DNA of 20,708 nt, taken from IMG/VR virus record IMGVR_UViG_3300025128_006297, positions 1 through 20,708 of that record. One strand, 5' to 3'. A program made the position numbers and the translations under genes. Positions 2,314 through 18,929 of the stretch are shown here, piece after piece. The notes under the pieces are model-generated. The model did not search any database. It saw only the letters and a list, made by a program, of their open reading frames with translations, and was not told the origin of the DNA. The number at the start of each line of letters is the position of its first letter. Position 1 is the first letter of the stretch. The DNA comes from a virus.

Positions 2314-3274
2314 AATATTAATAGTAGATGGGCTTAATGCCTATTATAGAAGTTACATCGTAGACCCCAGCCTATCGACCAATGGAGTTCCAATTGGAGG
2401 CGTCAAAGGCTTCCTCAAGATCTTACAGAAGCTTGTTAGGGAAACAACACCAGACCGAGTAGCGATTATCTGGGACGGCCCTGGAGGCTCTATGAGGCGT
2501 CGCCAAGTTAACAAGGGTTATAAGGAAGGCCGCAAGCCCATCCGTCTCAACCGAGACGTGAGAAACCTAACAGAAGACCAGGAGTTAGAGAACAAGGTGT
2601 GGCAACAGATGCGCCTCGTTGAGTATCTAAACGAACTCCCCATCAGCCAGATTATGATTCCAGCCATCGAAGCCGATGACGTCATCTCTTTGGTCACTCA
2701 GCTTCCCACCCTCAAAGGTTGGCAGAAGGTCATCGTATCTAGCGACAAAGACTTCTTCCAGTTGTGCGATGATGAGACTGTTCTGTTCAGGCCAATCCAA
2801 AAAGAAGTCTTGAACAAGAATACTATCTTAGAGAAGCACGGTATTCATCCCACCAATTTCGCTCTAGCCCGAGCCATCGCAGGAGACAAGAGCGATAATC
2901 TCCCAGGCGTTCCAGGTGCTGGCCTTAAGACCGTTGCAAAGCGCCTTCCATTCTTGTCGGAGGATAAGAGTTATACAATTGACGAGGTGGTAGACTTTTG
3001 TAAAAACACCGAGAGCAAGCTGAAAGCGTTCACGAGTATCGTCGAGCACGCAGATGTTGTTAAAGAGAACTATCAAATCATGCAACTTTATTCTCCAAGC
3101 ATGTCCCCGCAGGCAAAAAGGCAAGTCAAGACAGCCATAAACGATTTAGAGCCAGAACTTAATAAGACCGGCGTGATGAAAATGATGCACGAAGATGGCT
3201 TTGGGAGTTACGATTGGTCAGATCTGTTCGTTGCTATGAAGAGAATTGTTTCTTTTCCCATTGACAAAGCATAA
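2300..3274 (+). CDS. FEN-type 5'-3' exonuclease / flap endonuclease (T4 RNase H or Pol I N-domain type)
   Basis: The 324-residue protein carries the whole 5'-nuclease signature: Asp10 in ILIVDGLNAYYRS, Glu124-Ala-Asp126-Asp127, the SSDKDFFQL motif with Asp149 and Asp151, and the helix-three-turn-helix region GDKSDNLPGVPGAG (195-208) with Asp196 and Asp199. These acidic residues hold the two metal ions in the family. The enzyme removes RNA primers and 5' flaps during lagging-strand synthesis. Its length is typical of free-standing phage enzymes (about 300 residues), and no polymerase I domain is attached. It overlaps the basic protein upstream. Its last codons contain the -35 box of the promoter for the helicase. 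Confidence 0.93.
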   Translation: MKRNRILIVDGLNAYYRSYIVDPSLSTNGVPIGGVKGFLKILQKLVRETTPDRVAIIWDGPGGSMRRRQVNKGYKEGRKPIRLNRDVRNLTEDQELENKVWQQMRLVEYLNELPISQIMIPAIEADDVISLVTQLPTLKGWQKVIVSSDKDFFQLCDDETVLFRPIQKEVLNKNTILEKHGIHPTNFALARAIAGDKSDNLPGVPGAGLKTVAKRLPFLSEDKSYTIDEVVDFCKNTESKLKAFTSIVEHADVVKENYQIMQLYSPSMSPQAKRQVKTAINDLEPELNKTGVMKMMHEDGFGSYDWSDLFVAMKRIVSFPIDKA

Positions 3275-13000: not shown

Positions 13001-13489
13001 GACGACAGGTTCACAGGGCAGAAGCATTTCTGGTCTGCTACCGTTGCCGACCGACCTAAGACGTTGAAGAAGTTCCGTGAGAACATTGAACTCTATGCCG
13101 AGGAAGGAGACTTCAGTAAGGAAGAACACATCGCACACCTTTCAGAATACACAGGCGTGTTCCCCATTCATCTCGTAATGGACCAAGAGACTGAAGATAG
13201 TCTTAAGGAGAAGTTCATTCCTCCCATCTCAGAATTCGACCGAGACCTCGGCCTCGTCTGGTTTATCCCGAGAGAAGTAATCAAAAAGAAAACCAAGAGA
13301 GGAAAGGACTATTACATTGTGAATGTCGTAGACAGCAACAGCACAACGACACAAATCAAATGCTGGGGTGTTCGCCCCGAAAAAGATAAGGTTCTCTTGA
13401 ACCGACCCTACATCGCCAAGCTGGAGCACGATGAACAATGGGGATTCTCTACTCGCTCCATTCGACATAACTTTAGATTAATTGGTTGA
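10064..13489 (+). CDS. dnaE: DNA polymerase III alpha subunit (family C) with PHP domain
   Basis: This 1141-residue protein is close to full DnaE length. The N-terminal PHP domain keeps His13-x-His15, Asp46-His47, Glu77 and Asp256-x-His258, several of which are lost in E. coli alpha. The palm motif GPGRGSAAGSLVAYVL is near residue 426. The catalytic aspartates are Asp468 and Asp470 in PDIDYD and Asp633 in FIKFDILGL. A C-terminal OB-like strand set (GLVWFIPREV...YYIVNVVDS...IKCWGV) follows. A lysine-rich insert (about residues 96-125) interrupts the PHP domain. This would be the replicative polymerase; no DnaQ exonuclease, clamp or loader is visible here. ATG 10064 overlaps the preceding gene by 23 bases behind an AGGAACAG site. 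Confidence 0.95.
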   Translation: MRTESKIKFVGLHAHSGMSLNDGLGYPQDHMDFAYENGMDALALTDHGHMNGLAYQVLHAQKMKKDNKNFKPIFGVEAYFLPSIEDWKTEYDSVAEKKKSKKKKKDDMKLSIEDEAASKKAIKNILNRRNHLILVAMNQTGLNNIFKLISESYKNENFYRYPRIDYDLLARYSDGIISTSACLGGVYAGDYWNNKDEGEEQTLSAMRKTTERMLEIFGDRWYGEIQWNAIPEQHELNKYIIQVCKEYNVQLVSTADSHYPNPNAWTDRELYKRLGWLSKGGLPDYMDANLPVSVEEIGYELYPKNGDQMWESYKKYSEMLGVEYDDDLVMDSIQRTHAIAHERIESFLPDNTVRLPNFVVPEGMTEVAALTSACVKGLKEKNLQESQEYIDRLKEELNVIKDRGFSKYFLTMKAIADKAAAVQLVGPGRGSAAGSLVAYVLDITQIDPIKYGLLFSRFLRRDATDYPDIDYDVSDPMELKELLIDEWGDTTVVPISNYNTLQLRSLVKDVSKFYDIPFTEVNAVTGKMLHEATPLAKQKHGIKAGVYAPTFEEVKEYSASLKGFLKKYPHVAHHIDALYGQVRSVSRHAGGVVVGENLDEWMPLVNSKGVRQTPWSEGQNVRHLEPLGFIKFDILGLSTLRMIEGCVRNILKRHHNIPEPTFEDVKRYYDENLHPDVINMNDQNVYKNIFHNGKWAGIFQFTEQGAQGFCKRAKPQNIVDISAITSIFRPGPLSAKVDRNYVAAKQNPKDIEYVHKIVREVTKETYGFLIFQEQIALLAHKLGKNVSLDEGNMLRKLLTKKGTGKGAQKKNEIHKKFIEGCISKGLSASAGEELWETFEYFSGYGFNKSHAISYSVLSYQCAHLFNYYPSEWVAAFLSKEPEGRKEKAINIAKSMGFNIEPLQINTSGRVWEISEDGKTLIQPLSSIKGLGDAAMDQILANRPFNTIEEFIFNDDIVYSKLNKKALDVLLRSHALNCLMDDRFTGQKHFWSATVADRPKTLKKFRENIELYAEEGDFSKEEHIAHLSEYTGVFPIHLVMDQETEDSLKEKFIPPISEFDRDLGLVWFIPREVIKKKTKRGKDYYIVNVVDSNSTTTQIKCWGVRPEKDKVLLNRPYIAKLEHDEQWGFSTRSIRHNFRLIG

Positions 13490-13514
13490 CAAGCGTCTCC
13501 AGAAATAGTATAAT
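13486..13514 (+). promoter_or_regulatory. Consensus sigma70-type promoter ahead of dUTPase
   Basis: TTGACA at 13486-13491, a 17-base spacer and TATAAT at 13509-13514. Its -35 contains the polymerase stop codon. The expected start near 13521 leaves only about 12 bases before the ATG at 13533, with GAGGT in between. Confidence 0.78.
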
Positions 13515-13532: not shown

Positions 13533-14012
13533 ATGAAACTTAAAGTATTCCGCCTACGCCCAGAGGCCAAACTTCCCCACCGGGCACACCCAACAGATGC
13601 AGGCTGCGATGTCTTCTATTGCCGCCGTGGAGATGACATCTTCACTTCTGATTCTATAGACGACAGGGGGAACATCATTGTCTACCCCAACACGACCTGT
13701 CTGATCCCCACGGGCATCAAGGTAGAGTTCGCCTCCAATCACATGTTGGAAGTCAAGAACAAATCAGGTATTGCCAGCAAGAAGAACTTGGTTGTGGGAG
13801 CGTGCGTGATTGACCATCTCTATGACGGAGAGGTTTACATCAACCTTCACAACGTCGGCAAGGTTCCCCGAATAATCGAACCAGGGCAAAAGGTTGCCCA
13901 AGTCGTTCTCGTTCCCATCTCTACCTGTGAGGTTGAGGAAGTGTTCGAGGACAATCTAAACCAAGGCACCGCTCGCTCAGAAGGTGGCTTTGGCTCAACA
14001 GGAGATTTTTAA
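13533..14012 (+). CDS. dut: dUTPase (trimeric type)
   Basis: All five dUTPase motifs appear in order in this 159-residue protein: HPTDAGCDVF (motif 1), NKSGIASKK (2), CVIDHLYDGEV (3; Asp is the catalytic residue of the family), GQKVAQVVLVP (4) and ARSEGGFGSTGDF (5, the Gly-rich P-loop-like tail). It hydrolyses dUTP to dUMP and pyrophosphate, keeping uracil out of DNA and supplying dUMP for thymidylate synthesis. An insert of about 15 residues after motif 1 (RRGDDIFTSDSIDDRGN) lengthens it slightly. Motif 2 has Lys-Ser where most have Arg-Ser. It has its own consensus promoter and starts the operon that includes the next two genes. Confidence 0.95.
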   Translation: MKLKVFRLRPEAKLPHRAHPTDAGCDVFYCRRGDDIFTSDSIDDRGNIIVYPNTTCLIPTGIKVEFASNHMLEVKNKSGIASKKNLVVGACVIDHLYDGEVYINLHNVGKVPRIIEPGQKVAQVVLVPISTCEVEEVFEDNLNQGTARSEGGFGSTGDF

Positions 14013-14317
14013 TGAGTAAGTTTGAAAGAAAGATCCGAAGACAAAAAGAAAAAGAAGCTAGAAAGCGTGAAAGAAAGGAATTCAAGAACGCAGACCAAGA
14101 CCTGGGAGAGAAGGTAGGTCTCTTCAATAAAATCCCAGACCACTGTATGATGTGTCAAGACTCATTCGACAAGACCAATCGAGAGATGGTTTCGTCTTGG
14201 AACGTCGTTGTGAGAGAAGAAGAGGGTAAAGTAAATCTATATTGCCCTGATTGCTGGGACAACGCACAAAAGATCATCAGAGAGTTTCAGGAGAGTTTAA
14301 ATGAAAGAGGCAGTTAG
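14012..14317 (+). CDS. Unassigned zinc-ribbon-like protein with basic N-terminus
   Basis: The 101-residue product begins with a strongly basic helix (KIRRQKEKEARKRERKEFK, residues 7-25). Two Cys-x-x-Cys pairs follow, Cys45/Cys48 (HCMMCQ) and Cys78/Cys81 (YCPDCWD), a spacing that would fit a zinc ribbon. This combination suggests a nucleic-acid or protein-binding adaptor, but no family is recognised. Its ATG overlaps the dUTPase stop by one base (TAATG), behind AGGAG. It overlaps the next gene by 17 bases, so all three are probably translated from one message. Confidence 0.72.
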   Translation: MSKFERKIRRQKEKEARKRERKEFKNADQDLGEKVGLFNKIPDHCMMCQDSFDKTNREMVSSWNVVVREEEGKVNLYCPDCWDNAQKIIREFQESLNERGS

Positions 14318-15311
14318 TTTCGACGATGTCCTGCTCACACCAGGATACTCCGACATCACCAGTCGGTCAGAGATTGATGCAGGGAGTACACTGGGCCAGA
14401 TGTATTTCAGCCTCCCAGTCATCTCCTCCCCGATGGATACTGTCACGGAAGTGGGAATGTCCCAGGCCCTAAGCACCGCAGGTGGAGTAGGTATCATCCA
14501 TCGCTACAATTCAATTGAGGAGCAGGCTGGCCTCGTCGCCAACCTACGCACCCAAAGCATCCATACCGGAGCAGCAATTGGAATTACAGGAGACTTCTTG
14601 GCCAGAGCCGAGACCCTCGTGGAGAACGATGTATCTTTCCTATGTGTTGATGTGGCCCACGGCCATCACGCATTGGTCAAGGGTGCGCTCACTTCTTTGC
14701 GTGAGGCACTCCCAAGCGACACTCACATCATGGCTGGGAACGTTGCGACCCTTCAAGGTTTCAATGACTTAGCCGACTGGGGAGCCAGCAGCATCAGGGT
14801 CGGCATCGGAGGAGGTTCAATCTGTAGCACACGCATCCAAACAGGCCACGGGGTTCCAACACTCCAGTCTGTGATTGAGTGCGCCCAGTCAGATCGGAAC
14901 GCAACTCTCATTGCTGACGGAGGGTTCAAGACCAGTGGTGACATTGTGAAAGCCCTCGCCGCAGGGGCAGACTTCGTTATGCTCGGCTCAATGCTCGCAG
15001 GCACTGAGGAGGCACCAGGAGAAATCATTTATAACAATGGTGCTGCCTTCAAGGTTTACCGAGGCATGGCGAGCAAGGAAGCCCAAGTAGAGTGGAGAGG
15101 TCGCTTCTCTTCCAACGAAGGCGTCACAGGCTGGCTCCCATTCAAAGGTTCAGTCGGCCCAATCCTTGAGGACTTGGAGCGAGGGATCCGAAGTGGTCTC
15201 TCCTATTCAGGCGCAAGGAACCTACTGGAACTAAGAGCCAAGCACGAGTTCATTCGTCAGACACCAGCGGGACAAACTGAAAGCGGTACCCGTATCCAGA
15301 GAAAGTTATGA
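14301..15311 (+). CDS. IMP dehydrogenase / GMP reductase family enzyme (no CBS domains)
   Basis: The 336-residue TIM-barrel protein starts with SFDDVLLTPGYSD, has SLPVISSPMDTVTE and GGVGIIHRY, and carries the loop GIGGGSICSTRIQTGHG with the catalytic Cys175. It ends with GIRSGLSYSGARNLLEL. The two CBS domains common in IMP dehydrogenases are absent. The stretch from the GM-x-S motif to the EG of the flap is about 20 residues, nearer GMP reductases (about 23) than IMP dehydrogenases (about 28), and the PFKG and FIR segments also read GMP reductase-like. I do not see the Arg-Tyr pair that IMP dehydrogenases use. GMP reductase (GMP to IMP) is therefore slightly favoured. Either activity would shift purine nucleotide balance. 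SD GGAG lies upstream of ATG 14301. Confidence 0.85.
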   Translation: MKEAVSFDDVLLTPGYSDITSRSEIDAGSTLGQMYFSLPVISSPMDTVTEVGMSQALSTAGGVGIIHRYNSIEEQAGLVANLRTQSIHTGAAIGITGDFLARAETLVENDVSFLCVDVAHGHHALVKGALTSLREALPSDTHIMAGNVATLQGFNDLADWGASSIRVGIGGGSICSTRIQTGHGVPTLQSVIECAQSDRNATLIADGGFKTSGDIVKALAAGADFVMLGSMLAGTEEAPGEIIYNNGAAFKVYRGMASKEAQVEWRGRFSSNEGVTGWLPFKGSVGPILEDLERGIRSGLSYSGARNLLELRAKHEFIRQTPAGQTESGTRIQRKL

Positions 15312-15646
15312 CTGACTTTTCAAAGCGTCGTAGAGCCAAGAAGAAGATTTCCTTTGAAGACTTCGCAGAACAACACGCAAGTCTTAAGATACGCCTCAAC
15401 TATGATGGGGTAAAGCAAGGAGAGTTCTTCCGAGCAATACTAGACGCATACGTAAATAAGAACGAGCACATCTTAAATTTCATCGAAGAGTATAAAAAAG
15501 AAAAACAAATACACAGCGATGAAAAGAGAGCCAAGTCCAGAAAGCTGGTTCAAAAGGGCAAAGAAGTTACTACAAAGTTTGCCTTGAATGAAGATGAGAT
15601 AGAGAGTATTTTCGACCTAATAGCAGAGGAGCACCCAGATTTATGA
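15308..15646 (+). CDS. Possible ribbon-helix-helix regulator
   Basis: The 112-residue product has a basic head (SKRRRAKKK, residues 5-13). A segment at about 25-50, ASLKIRLNYD then KQGEFFRAILDAYVNKN, has the strand-helix-helix spacing of Arc/MetJ-type DNA-binding proteins. A long charged helix and an acidic C-terminus (LNEDEIESIFDLIAEEHPDL) follow. A dimeric DNA-binding role is inferred from this pattern only. It overlaps the purine enzyme by four bases (ATGA), and the sigma-like gene overlaps its stop in the same way, so the two proteins are very likely made together. Confidence 0.65.
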   Translation: MTDFSKRRRAKKKISFEDFAEQHASLKIRLNYDGVKQGEFFRAILDAYVNKNEHILNFIEEYKKEKQIHSDEKRAKSRKLVQKGKEVTTKFALNEDEIESIFDLIAEEHPDL

Positions 15647-15915
15647 GTAAGAATAAGAATAGACTAAGAGAATGTTGTAATTGCTGTTTGGCACACGACG
15701 TAGCGTGCCCAGTGGAAGATTGCAGACAATGGATCGATTACGAAGAAGATAATAACTGTACGCTGATAGCAGTACAAAAGAATGGAGCAATGACCCTCCG
15801 AGAGATAGGAGATAGGCTCGATGTCAGCTTTGTTCGAGTGAAACAGATTGAGTCCGAGATATTAAAAAAATTAGATAAGAAATTCCCAGACTTAAAAAAA
15901 CAGCTATTGAAATGA
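15643..15915 (+). CDS. Small sigma-factor region 4-like protein with cysteine-rich N-terminus
   Basis: The 90-residue product ends with a clear sigma region 4 helix-turn-helix at residues 51-77: TLREIGDRLDVSFVRVKQIE, then an ILKKL helix, matching the housekeeping-sigma pattern TLxEIGxxxxVTRERVRQIExxALxKLR. The region that binds the -35 element is therefore present, but regions 1-3, including the -10-reading region 2, are missing. The N-terminus holds seven cysteines (11, 12, 14, 15, 22, 27, 39) and may bind zinc. By comparison with T4 late transcription proteins it might act on host RNA polymerase, but this is inference. GAGGAG lies upstream and the ATGA overlap couples it to the preceding gene. 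Confidence 0.8.
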   Translation: MSKNKNRLRECCNCCLAHDVACPVEDCRQWIDYEEDNNCTLIAVQKNGAMTLREIGDRLDVSFVRVKQIESEILKKLDKKFPDLKKQLLK

Positions 15916-15926
15916 TTTTATGGGAC

Positions 15927-15953
15927 TTTACCATATTACAAACTATTTATACT
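15927..15953 (+). promoter_or_regulatory. Possible promoter ahead of the acidic protein
   Basis: TATACT at 15948-15953 lies 15 bases after TTTACC at 15927-15932. The short spacer weakens the call, but the resulting leader of about 24 bases before ATG 15984, with AGGAG, matches the other units. The non-coding gap here is 68 bases. Confidence 0.4.
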
Positions 15954-15983: not shown

Positions 15984-16787
15984 ATGAGTGACAACAAGAA
16001 CTTACTAAACGAGAACACACTTCGCCGTTTTATGAAGCTTGCTTCTCTTCACAGTCTTGCCGATTCAACTGTTGAAAAGGTGATCGTAAAAGAGGAAGAG
16101 ATCGTAGAAGAAGGCTATGGACATAAGAAAGGCGACGACGACCGTGAGGCCATGGCCCATGGCGACGAGGCTCATAGTGATTATGAGACCACAAAGAAAG
16201 GCGACGAGACCGAAGAAGGTATGCCCGCTTACATGCAAGAGGACGAGGCAGAAGAGCTTCGTGCTGATGCAGAGATGGACATGGACGACGCTGCTGACGA
16301 TTTAGCATTAGCCGCAGACGACGACATGGACGCTGCTGAAGACGCCATGGACGCCGCAGAGGACGAGATGGAAGACGCAGAGGCAGACATGGAAGACGCC
16401 GAAGAAGAAGTAGAGATGGCTGAGAAAGAGGCTCTCGCAGTAGACGTAATGGATGCTGTTGCCGCTGCCCTCGACGCTGCCCTTGGAACTGTAACTACAG
16501 TTGAGACTGGCGACGAAGAGCCAGAGCTTGAGCTAGACGACACAGAGGTTGTTGACCTTGGCGACGACGAGCTTGAGATCGAGGACGACGAAGAGCTTGA
16601 GATGGCTGAAATGGCCCACGCAGAAGAAGAAGAGGTAATGGAAGAAGCAGTTGTAAGTCAGATCGTTGATCGTGTTGCAGCCCGCTTAACTCAAGAAGTC
16701 AAAGATGATAAGAAAGATCAATTGGCTGAGAGTCTTGCCGACAAAATAATCTTTGCTCGTCTTACAGCAAAGAGCACCTCTAAGTAA
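15984..16787 (+). CDS. Extremely acidic heptad-repeat protein, possible scaffold/core protein
   Basis: The 267-residue product starts with a basic amphipathic segment (NENTLRRFMKLASLHSL, residues 9-25) and ends with a charged helix (DKKDQLAESLADKIIFARL). Between them about 150 residues are mostly Asp, Glu, Ala and Met. Methionines 115, 122, 129 and 136 are exactly seven residues apart, so the middle is a heptad repeat and probably a long helix. I recall similar openings near head-assembly proteins of marine phages but cannot verify this. A scaffolding or prohead-core role is the first guess, a DNA-mimic or calcium-binding role the alternatives. It probably has its own promoter and a strong AGGAG site. 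Confidence 0.85.
   Translation: MSDNKNLLNENTLRRFMKLASLHSLADSTVEKVIVKEEEIVEEGYGHKKGDDDREAMAHGDEAHSDYETTKKGDETEEGMPAYMQEDEAEELRADAEMDMDDAADDLALAADDDMDAAEDAMDAAEDEMEDAEADMEDAEEEVEMAEKEALAVDVMDAVAAALDAALGTVTTVETGDEEPELELDDTEVVDLGDDELEIEDDEELEMAEMAHAEEEEVMEEAVVSQIVDRVAARLTQEVKDDKKDQLAESLADKIIFARLTAKSTSK
16305..16424 (+). repeat. In-frame 21-base repeats coding the acidic heptads
   Basis: Imperfect 21-base units code heptads such as MDAAEDA, MDAAEDE, MEDAEAD and MEDAEEE (about residues 108-147 of the acidic protein). The gac, gcc, gag and gaa codons recur with small changes, as expected of old tandem duplication. Confidence 0.7.
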
Positions 16788-18206: not shown

Positions 18207-18929
18207 ATGGACTTTGCCAAAAAGAAAAAAACAACAGAAGACGAAGAGCCTAAAGAGGAAAAGGCAGAAGCAACACCCGAGGAGCAAGCAAAAACTTTAG
18301 AAGATATGCTCGCCTCCTCACCAGTGTTGTTCCTAAATTCTCCCCAAGAGCCTCCTCAAGATGAAGTTAAGATCAGAAACCTCACACTCTACGGAGACTT
18401 GGTGGAAGATAAAGCAGCAGAGCTTTGCTTTGCCCTCAATGCATTAAAGGAGATGGGGAAATACAAAACCCTCAAAGATCCCGAAGATGCTACTTCAGCA
18501 ATCATCACGGCCTACAAGCCAATTGACTTTACCATCTCAACCTACGGTGGTTCAGCCCTCGACATGTTCGCCATCTACGATACAATGCGTATGGTGCGTG
18601 AAGAGTGCGGCATCAACACTTTAGGGATTGGAAAGGTTATGTCCGCAGGAGTTCTGCTCCTTGCAGCAGGATCTAAAGGAAAGAGAAAGATTGGCCGCAA
18701 CTGCCGTGTTATGATTCACAGTGTTGTTGGTGGAAGCCACGGAAGCATTCACAACCTTGAGAATGAGATGGACGAGGTCCGTTGGATTCAAGACAAGTAC
18801 AGTGAATTGCTTTGTGCCGAGACAGACATGACTAGATCTTACCTCAAGAAGATCTTAGGAAGAAAAGTCAATGTTTATCTCACGGCGGTCGAGGCGGTCG
18901 AGTTGGGCATCGCAGACGAAGTGGTATAA
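18207..18929 (+). CDS. ClpP-family (S14) serine protease, catalytic Asp not visible
   Basis: The ClpP fold is clear over residues 55-240 of this 240-residue protein: an oxyanion Gly114-Gly115 (TYGGSALDMFAIYDTM), the nucleophile Ser146 in GKVMSAGVLLLAAGSKG and His171 in RVMIHSVVGGSHG, closing with AVEAVELGIADEV. The third residue of the family triad (Asp171 of mature E. coli ClpP) aligns with about Gly218, and residues 209-228 contain no Asp or Glu. A charged, Lys/Glu-rich head of about 30 residues replaces the propeptide, and about 15 extra residues lie near 85-104. It may partner with a host Clp ATPase or act as a head-maturation protease. No ClpX or ClpA is seen. Confidence 0.88.
   Translation: MDFAKKKKTTEDEEPKEEKAEATPEEQAKTLEDMLASSPVLFLNSPQEPPQDEVKIRNLTLYGDLVEDKAAELCFALNALKEMGKYKTLKDPEDATSAIITAYKPIDFTISTYGGSALDMFAIYDTMRMVREECGINTLGIGKVMSAGVLLLAAGSKGKRKIGRNCRVMIHSVVGGSHGSIHNLENEMDEVRWIQDKYSELLCAETDMTRSYLKKILGRKVNVYLTAVEAVELGIADEVV

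Follow-up and report, generated by a model that had tools for sequence, protein, structure and literature searches.

A 20,708-base virus record (a genome fragment, hereafter the window) encodes two small coupled proteins: a 90-aa protein that contains sigma region 4 and no other sigma region, and a 112-aa protein that is predicted to be all-helical. The pair, which ends where late transcription appears to start (Table 1), is a good candidate for a component that helps to activate the virus assembly genes. In the putative late promoters of this virus group, a position-locked -35 block precedes a CTATTTA box, with the consensus AGCTTTTT-N13-A-CTATTTA. We tentatively propose, with a little less than even confidence, that the pair is an adaptor through which RNA polymerase is switched from middle to late transcription, in which the sigma region 4 (sigma-4) protein would be a true sigma-4 counterpart of phage T4 gp33 beside a gp55-like factor.

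Table 1. Features around the gene pair in the window
Feature	Position	Strand	Remarks
Sigma-70-type promoter TTGACA-N17-TATAAT	13486..13514	+	No mismatch; 5' of the pair's operon
dUTPase-like gene	13533..14012	+	First gene of the operon; assigned by reading the sequence
GuaB/GMP-reductase-like gene	14301..15311	+	Directly 5' of the pair; 4-base overlap with the 112-aa gene
112-aa all-helical protein (first gene of the pair)	15308..15646	+	Ribbon-helix-helix fold possible; the C-terminal tail IFDLIxxExPDL is conserved
90-aa sigma region 4-only protein	15643..15915	+	Five-cysteine head
-35-like block GGGACTTT	15922..15929	+	Family consensus AGCTTTTT; -21..-14 of the box
Putative late-promoter box CTATTTA	15943..15949	+	Occurs once in the window, both strands counted; just 3' of the sigma-4 gene
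Acidic protein, N-terminal LLxExxxRxFMKLA motif	15984..16787	+	First gene 3' of the late box

The two proteins and their inheritance

The match of the 90-aa protein to Pfam Sigma70_r4 (PF04545) covers residues 49-77 and lies above the curated cut-off (E 5.5e-8; 32.6 bits against 24.1), and the Pfam, PHROGs and NCBIfam scans detected no other sigma region in the protein, including Sigma70_r2. Region 4.1 is incomplete: the match starts at profile position 20, and a cysteine head replaces the first part of this region, unlike in PF04545 itself. In the AlphaFold2 model (mean pLDDT 88), helices are formed by residues 10-18, 40-47, 52-59 and 63-80; the first lies within the cysteine-rich head, and the last two constitute the helix-turn-helix (HTH) of region 4.2. 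The fold matches of this model in the PDB are weak and mostly to sigma region 4 chains (Foldseek best E 1.3; VIA-align best Z 3.0), and they include WhiB-SigA complexes, which match through their sigma-4 chains. The profile of the 90-aa family, when compared with solved structures, hits essentially only sigma factors (best E about 1e-5). An earlier note on this DNA had read a region 4 HTH and no other sigma region in the protein, and had named a predicted structure lacking the HTH, or relatives in the form of longer sigma factors, as outcomes that would speak against its reading. The HTH is present in the model, and no longer sigma factor occurs among the 91 distinct relatives, all of which are short.

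Seven cysteines lie N-terminal to the HTH, as the same note had counted, and five of them (C11, C15, C22, C27 and C39) are conserved at 99-100% in the 91 distinct sequences. C11, C22, C27 and C39 are invariant, together with N38, R58 and Q68, and C15 is kept at 99%. The five-cysteine head is probably a Zn or Fe-S site. Short cysteine-bearing sigma-4-like proteins may also occur in some bacterial chromosomes. The recognition helix reads S-F-V/A-R-V-K-Q-I-E, as compared to TRERIRQIE in region 4.2 of sigma-70, and the base-contacting residues R584 and E585 of sigma-70 correspond to F63 and V64. As judged from these comparisons, which predict no DNA specificity, the region 4.2 fold is kept and the base contacts are unlike those of sigma-70; only the HTH half of the protein is assigned to the domain family of sigma region 4.

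The 112-aa protein is modelled with five helices (residues 17-33, 37-49, 53-66, 71-90 and 95-108; pLDDT 80.5). Its possible identity as a ribbon-helix-helix DNA binder, as the earlier note had suggested, is plausible from the element order of the monomer model, in which a short N-terminal segment (residues 11-16, a strand at low confidence) is followed by helices 17-33 and 37-49, as in Arc/Mnt-type proteins, and from a weak alignment with P22 Mnt. No ribbon-helix-helix Pfam match was obtained for 26 members of the family, no PDB fold match for the model in the fold searches, and no alignment of the protein to Arc. Unlike the Arc/Mnt-type proteins, it also has about 60 further residues and a conserved FDLI tail. 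This C-terminal tail is common to a conserved protein of about 97 aa (AAKYVETLQRSNEQLVKI ... ELFDLI), which is encoded directly 3' of the gp55-like gene described below (L123, about 2730-3030, and most of L074-L135). These two are the only proteins with FDLI tails among the 206 proteins of the relative G001, a count that is not significant against the shuffled expectation of 0.66.

How faithfully is the pair inherited? In the window, the sequence ATGA at 15643-15646 is common to both ORFs, which lie where the earlier note had placed them, with the 4-base overlap that it described. The pair is more than a chance arrangement, since one pattern scan detected relatives of the 90-aa protein at 39 viral loci and a profile scan of the 112-aa family detected 506 related stretches, 80 of which were kept. 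The first gene was found at 120 loci, of which 117 also have the sigma-4 gene, directly adjacent in 114 of the 117, and the overlap (ATGA or GTGA) is retained in 104/117. The first gene stands without sigma-4 cleanly at three loci, and also on two large contigs (G032 and G033); no sigma-4 gene was found elsewhere in these five records. Sigma-4 without the first gene was never seen in the loci examined. The guaB-like gene occupies the same place in most relatives and is missing from some, the acidic LLxExxxRxFMKLA gene is the next after the pair in the relatives read, and the order of guaB-like gene, 112-aa type gene, sigma-4 gene and acidic gene is kept in nearly all of the loci read.

No convincing relatives were found in annotated phages and plasmids, and no cultured phage with the pair was found; both genes are absent from the gp55-bearing Flavobacterium phage immuto, Microcystis phage Mel-JY01 and LR756508. 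A cellular origin was rejected, as the sole match in the genome collection (L043) is a phage cassette inside a bacterial MAG, and the 192 genomes of the same phylum contain no other full-length relatives. This MAG contig, NZBZ01000006.1, is probably mis-binned virus DNA. We found no description of the pair in the open-access literature.

The promoter border and the gp55-like factor

A sigma-70 consensus with at most one mismatch occurs within 2 kb upstream in 36/95 loci, as compared to 4/95 shuffled controls, and the operon of the pair is, by its sequence, of the early/middle type. The CTATTTA box is found within the same 2 kb in 3/95 loci, as against 86/95 in the 130 bp after sigma-4; it lies 3' of the cassette in 104/111, with an expectation of about 0.03 per locus. 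In G001, a near-complete 185-kb contig that is the home of L007, CTATTTA stands 5' of the sheath, capsid and other structural units, and the replication genes have TTGACA-type promoters. This contig contains tail and head genes, a DnaE-type polymerase and a T4-type ssDNA-binding protein, mostly assigned by reading the sequences. Because of this gene content behind CTATTTA in G001, we infer that CTATTTA is the late box.

About 100 kb from the pair, G001 encodes a gp55-like protein. It matches a PHROG late sigma (E 4.7e-4), its alignment with T4 gp55 by hhalign is collinear and weak, and Pfam Sigma70_r2 is detected in 4/19 of its relatives (best E 0.0056); together, these matches give modest support for the gp55-like assignment. 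Genes of this type are very common among viral contigs. Sigma-4 was found on 7/20 gp55-positive contigs and the first gene on 9/20, and the absence of either gene from a fragment is not informative. Two contigs initially regarded as lacking the pair, G022 and G036, were withdrawn, as the whole cassette region is not on them. Compared with T4 gp55, the gp55-like proteins are extended by a conserved C-terminal domain of 75 aa, which is also present where sigma-4 is absent. No PDB chain matched this domain, and its identification as another sigma-4 was rejected, as it has no match to the sigma-4 profile. Neither a gp45 nor a beta sliding clamp was recognisable in 12 large contigs including G001, and the host clamp may be used; G001 has no recognisable clamp although its DnaE-type polymerase is present. 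On a different contig with the pair, G002, there is also a gene for a full-length sigma factor comprising regions 2 to 4 (L042:985-1818, minus strand; PHROG 351, E 8e-37).

The -35 block of the putative late promoters

The earlier note had looked toward late promoters with an altered -35, and a position-locked block does exist as a fact of sequence. When the CTATTTA sites in intergenic DNA 5' of genes were aligned for 12 sigma-4-positive genomes (n=115), the block was seen at -22..-14. The leave-one-out block scores exceed the genome null in 12/12 of these genomes (p 7e-7 to 0.04), and the mean block score is maximal at offset -22, a peak that persists after the removal of hairpin-bearing sites. 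The T-runs of terminators were thereby rejected as the cause of the block, since no more than 9/115 and 5/62 promoters have hairpins. The block does not differ between the 37 promoters in which it is clear of the sigma-4 ORF and the 25 in which it runs into the end of this ORF. In a replication with 57 further promoters of other cassettes, the block was sharper: G at -20 and C at -19 are each present in 39/57, and T is present in 35, 45, 51, 51 and 49 promoters at -18 to -14, respectively.

Does the sigma-4 protein read this block? In five contigs without sigma-4 (G032, G033, G040, G041 and G042), no loss of the block was seen: it was detected in 15/38 (39%), as compared to 44/111 (40%) with sigma-4 (p=0.62). 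The block is as frequent without the gene, and therefore the sigma-4 protein is not its only reader. A G-G at -23..-19 is rarer without sigma-4 (4/33 vs 39/106, p about 0.009) and the T-run is equal; this sub-signal was chosen after inspection, from related genomes, and its association with sigma-4 is a lead only. The C-terminal domain of the gp55-like proteins could be the common block reader, and the first protein, which is kept in all five contigs lacking sigma-4, is also a candidate.

A proposed adaptor and its alternatives

In the adaptor that we propose, the two proteins would be co-produced and form a complex. Its sigma-4 module would dock on the beta flap, the normal seat of host sigma region 4, and face the -35 DNA, CTATTTA would be read by the gp55-like factor, and these two would act jointly as a late sigma in split form. 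In place of the first region 4.1 helix, the cysteine head would probably shape the docking or the partner binding. The 90-aa protein has a -35-type HTH and no domain able to melt DNA, and AGCTTTTT-N13-A-CTATTTA stands 5' of the structural-gene units. Because the block also occurs in viruses with the first gene and without sigma-4, the sigma-4 protein would help or tune the -35 recognition and would not be the sole reader. Counting against the adaptor, the most direct prediction for a -35 reader failed, as the block frequency is the same without sigma-4. Further points against it are F63 and V64 at the base-contact positions of sigma-70, the absence of a recognisable viral sliding clamp from the 12 contigs, the modest support for the gp55-like assignment and the putative nature of the late box. 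An extended form of the proposal, a several-part late factor in which the gp55-like protein reads CTATTTA while a metal-dependent, cysteine-headed genuine sigma-4 and its helical partner occupy the beta flap and the AGCTTTTT block, is in our estimation unlikely.

Sigma-4-type HTHs are also found in ordinary regulators. The pair might be a stand-alone repressor or activator complex, in which a possible ribbon-helix-helix and an HTH bind operators, perhaps those of its own operon or of the early/late boundary, and in which no part docks on RNA polymerase in the manner of a sigma surrogate. This reading, which we regard as rather unlikely, accords with the persistence of the first protein alone in five contigs, as expected of a self-sufficient regulator, and with the independence of the -35 block from the sigma-4 gene, but true sigma-4 is what the HTH most resembles, with its Pfam match above the cut-off and its PDB profile matches to sigma factors. 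The same independence of the block would fit a role in host shut-off, in which the sigma-4 domain competes with region 4 of the host sigma for the beta flap and weakens the host and early -35-dependent promoters, and the gp55-like factor reads both late boxes by its own C-terminal domain. Remodelling of sigma-4 by phage proteins such as AsiA is known (PMC11598898), and the conserved 75-aa domain of the gp55-like proteins, present with or without sigma-4, is available for such reading. However, this domain matches neither a PDB chain nor the sigma-4 profile, and a pure blocker need not conserve the HTH residues R58, R65, K67 and Q68; host shut-off is in our view decidedly unlikely.

An anti-sigma or storage pair, in which the first protein would hold back the activity of the sigma-4 protein until late in infection, would agree with the ATGA coupling in 104/117 loci and with the constant company of the first gene wherever sigma-4 is seen; the first gene alone in five contigs is unexpected for a dedicated inhibitor, and we consider this arrangement improbable. 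Barely credible, finally, is a degenerate remnant of a full sigma factor: region 4 is all that is left, as such a remnant would have it, but the short architecture, the cysteines and the gene order are shared by 91 distinct sequences, and this candidate was rejected.

The proposed adaptor is best compared with the late factors of T4. On the beta flap, T4 gp33 is a "sigma-4 mimic", and gp55 plus gp33 form a "split sigma" (PMC2988020; PMC7892883); gp33 reads no DNA sequence, and the T4 late promoters need no -35 element (PMC2988020). The loose likeness to gp33/gp55 drawn in the earlier note is supported in part, because the 185-kb relative encodes a gp55-like sigma and the cassette lies at the early/late boundary; neither member of the pair is itself a sigma-2 protein. 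As in T4, a sigma-2-type late factor occurs in the same virus with an AT-rich late box, and a separate small protein is proposed for the flap site. Unlike gp33, this small protein has a true HTH with a cysteine head and is coupled to a second small protein, and no gp33 PHROG was among the matches of either protein. Unlike in T4, the late promoters here have a -35 block, and no sliding clamp was found in 12 contigs. As candidate counterparts of the clamp-binding tail of gp33, FDLI tails were observed on the first protein and on the protein encoded after the gp55-like gene.

A split sigma calls for a sigma-2-type protein in the same virus, which G001 has in its gp55-like protein, and for a sigma-4 part tied to a -35 element; such a tie was not found, the block being equally frequent without the gene and only the G-G sub-signal differing. 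In Bacillus subtilis SigO/RsoA, the sigma-4 and sigma-2 domains are also on separate proteins (PMC10028694). The sigma parts considered here differ from SigO/RsoA in lying about 100 kb apart, in the cysteine head and in the helical partner, and their cooperation is only proposed. WhiB-SigA region 4 likewise places a cysteine-rich module beside a sigma-4 domain at the beta flap, where docking of the 90-aa protein is proposed. Unlike WhiB and SigA, which are separate proteins, the two modules are on one chain here, with no WhiB sequence match and with a putative Fe-S or Zn site.

If the adaptor model is true, these abundant uncultured tailed phages would present another natural splitting of sigma for late transcription, with a real -35-type module kept, and a computable promoter code, AGCTTTTT-N13-ACTATTTA, would sort early from late genes in the phage group. 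Should the model be wrong, this code and the place of the pair at the border of early and late genes still open the question to a direct test.

Further genes follow the late box. After the acidic gene, the window encodes a ClpP-like head maturation protease (18207-18929; PHROG 94, E 1.2e-15) and then GroEL. In G001, about 10 otherwise different proteins begin with a leader like MKLLFENWRxYLKE (L045, G001 bases 22410-33246; G001 ends L044, L052 and L053), and several others begin with MKLTKQxLxxxIKEELxxLL. These shared leaders are perhaps capsid-targeting sequences that are cut by the head protease.
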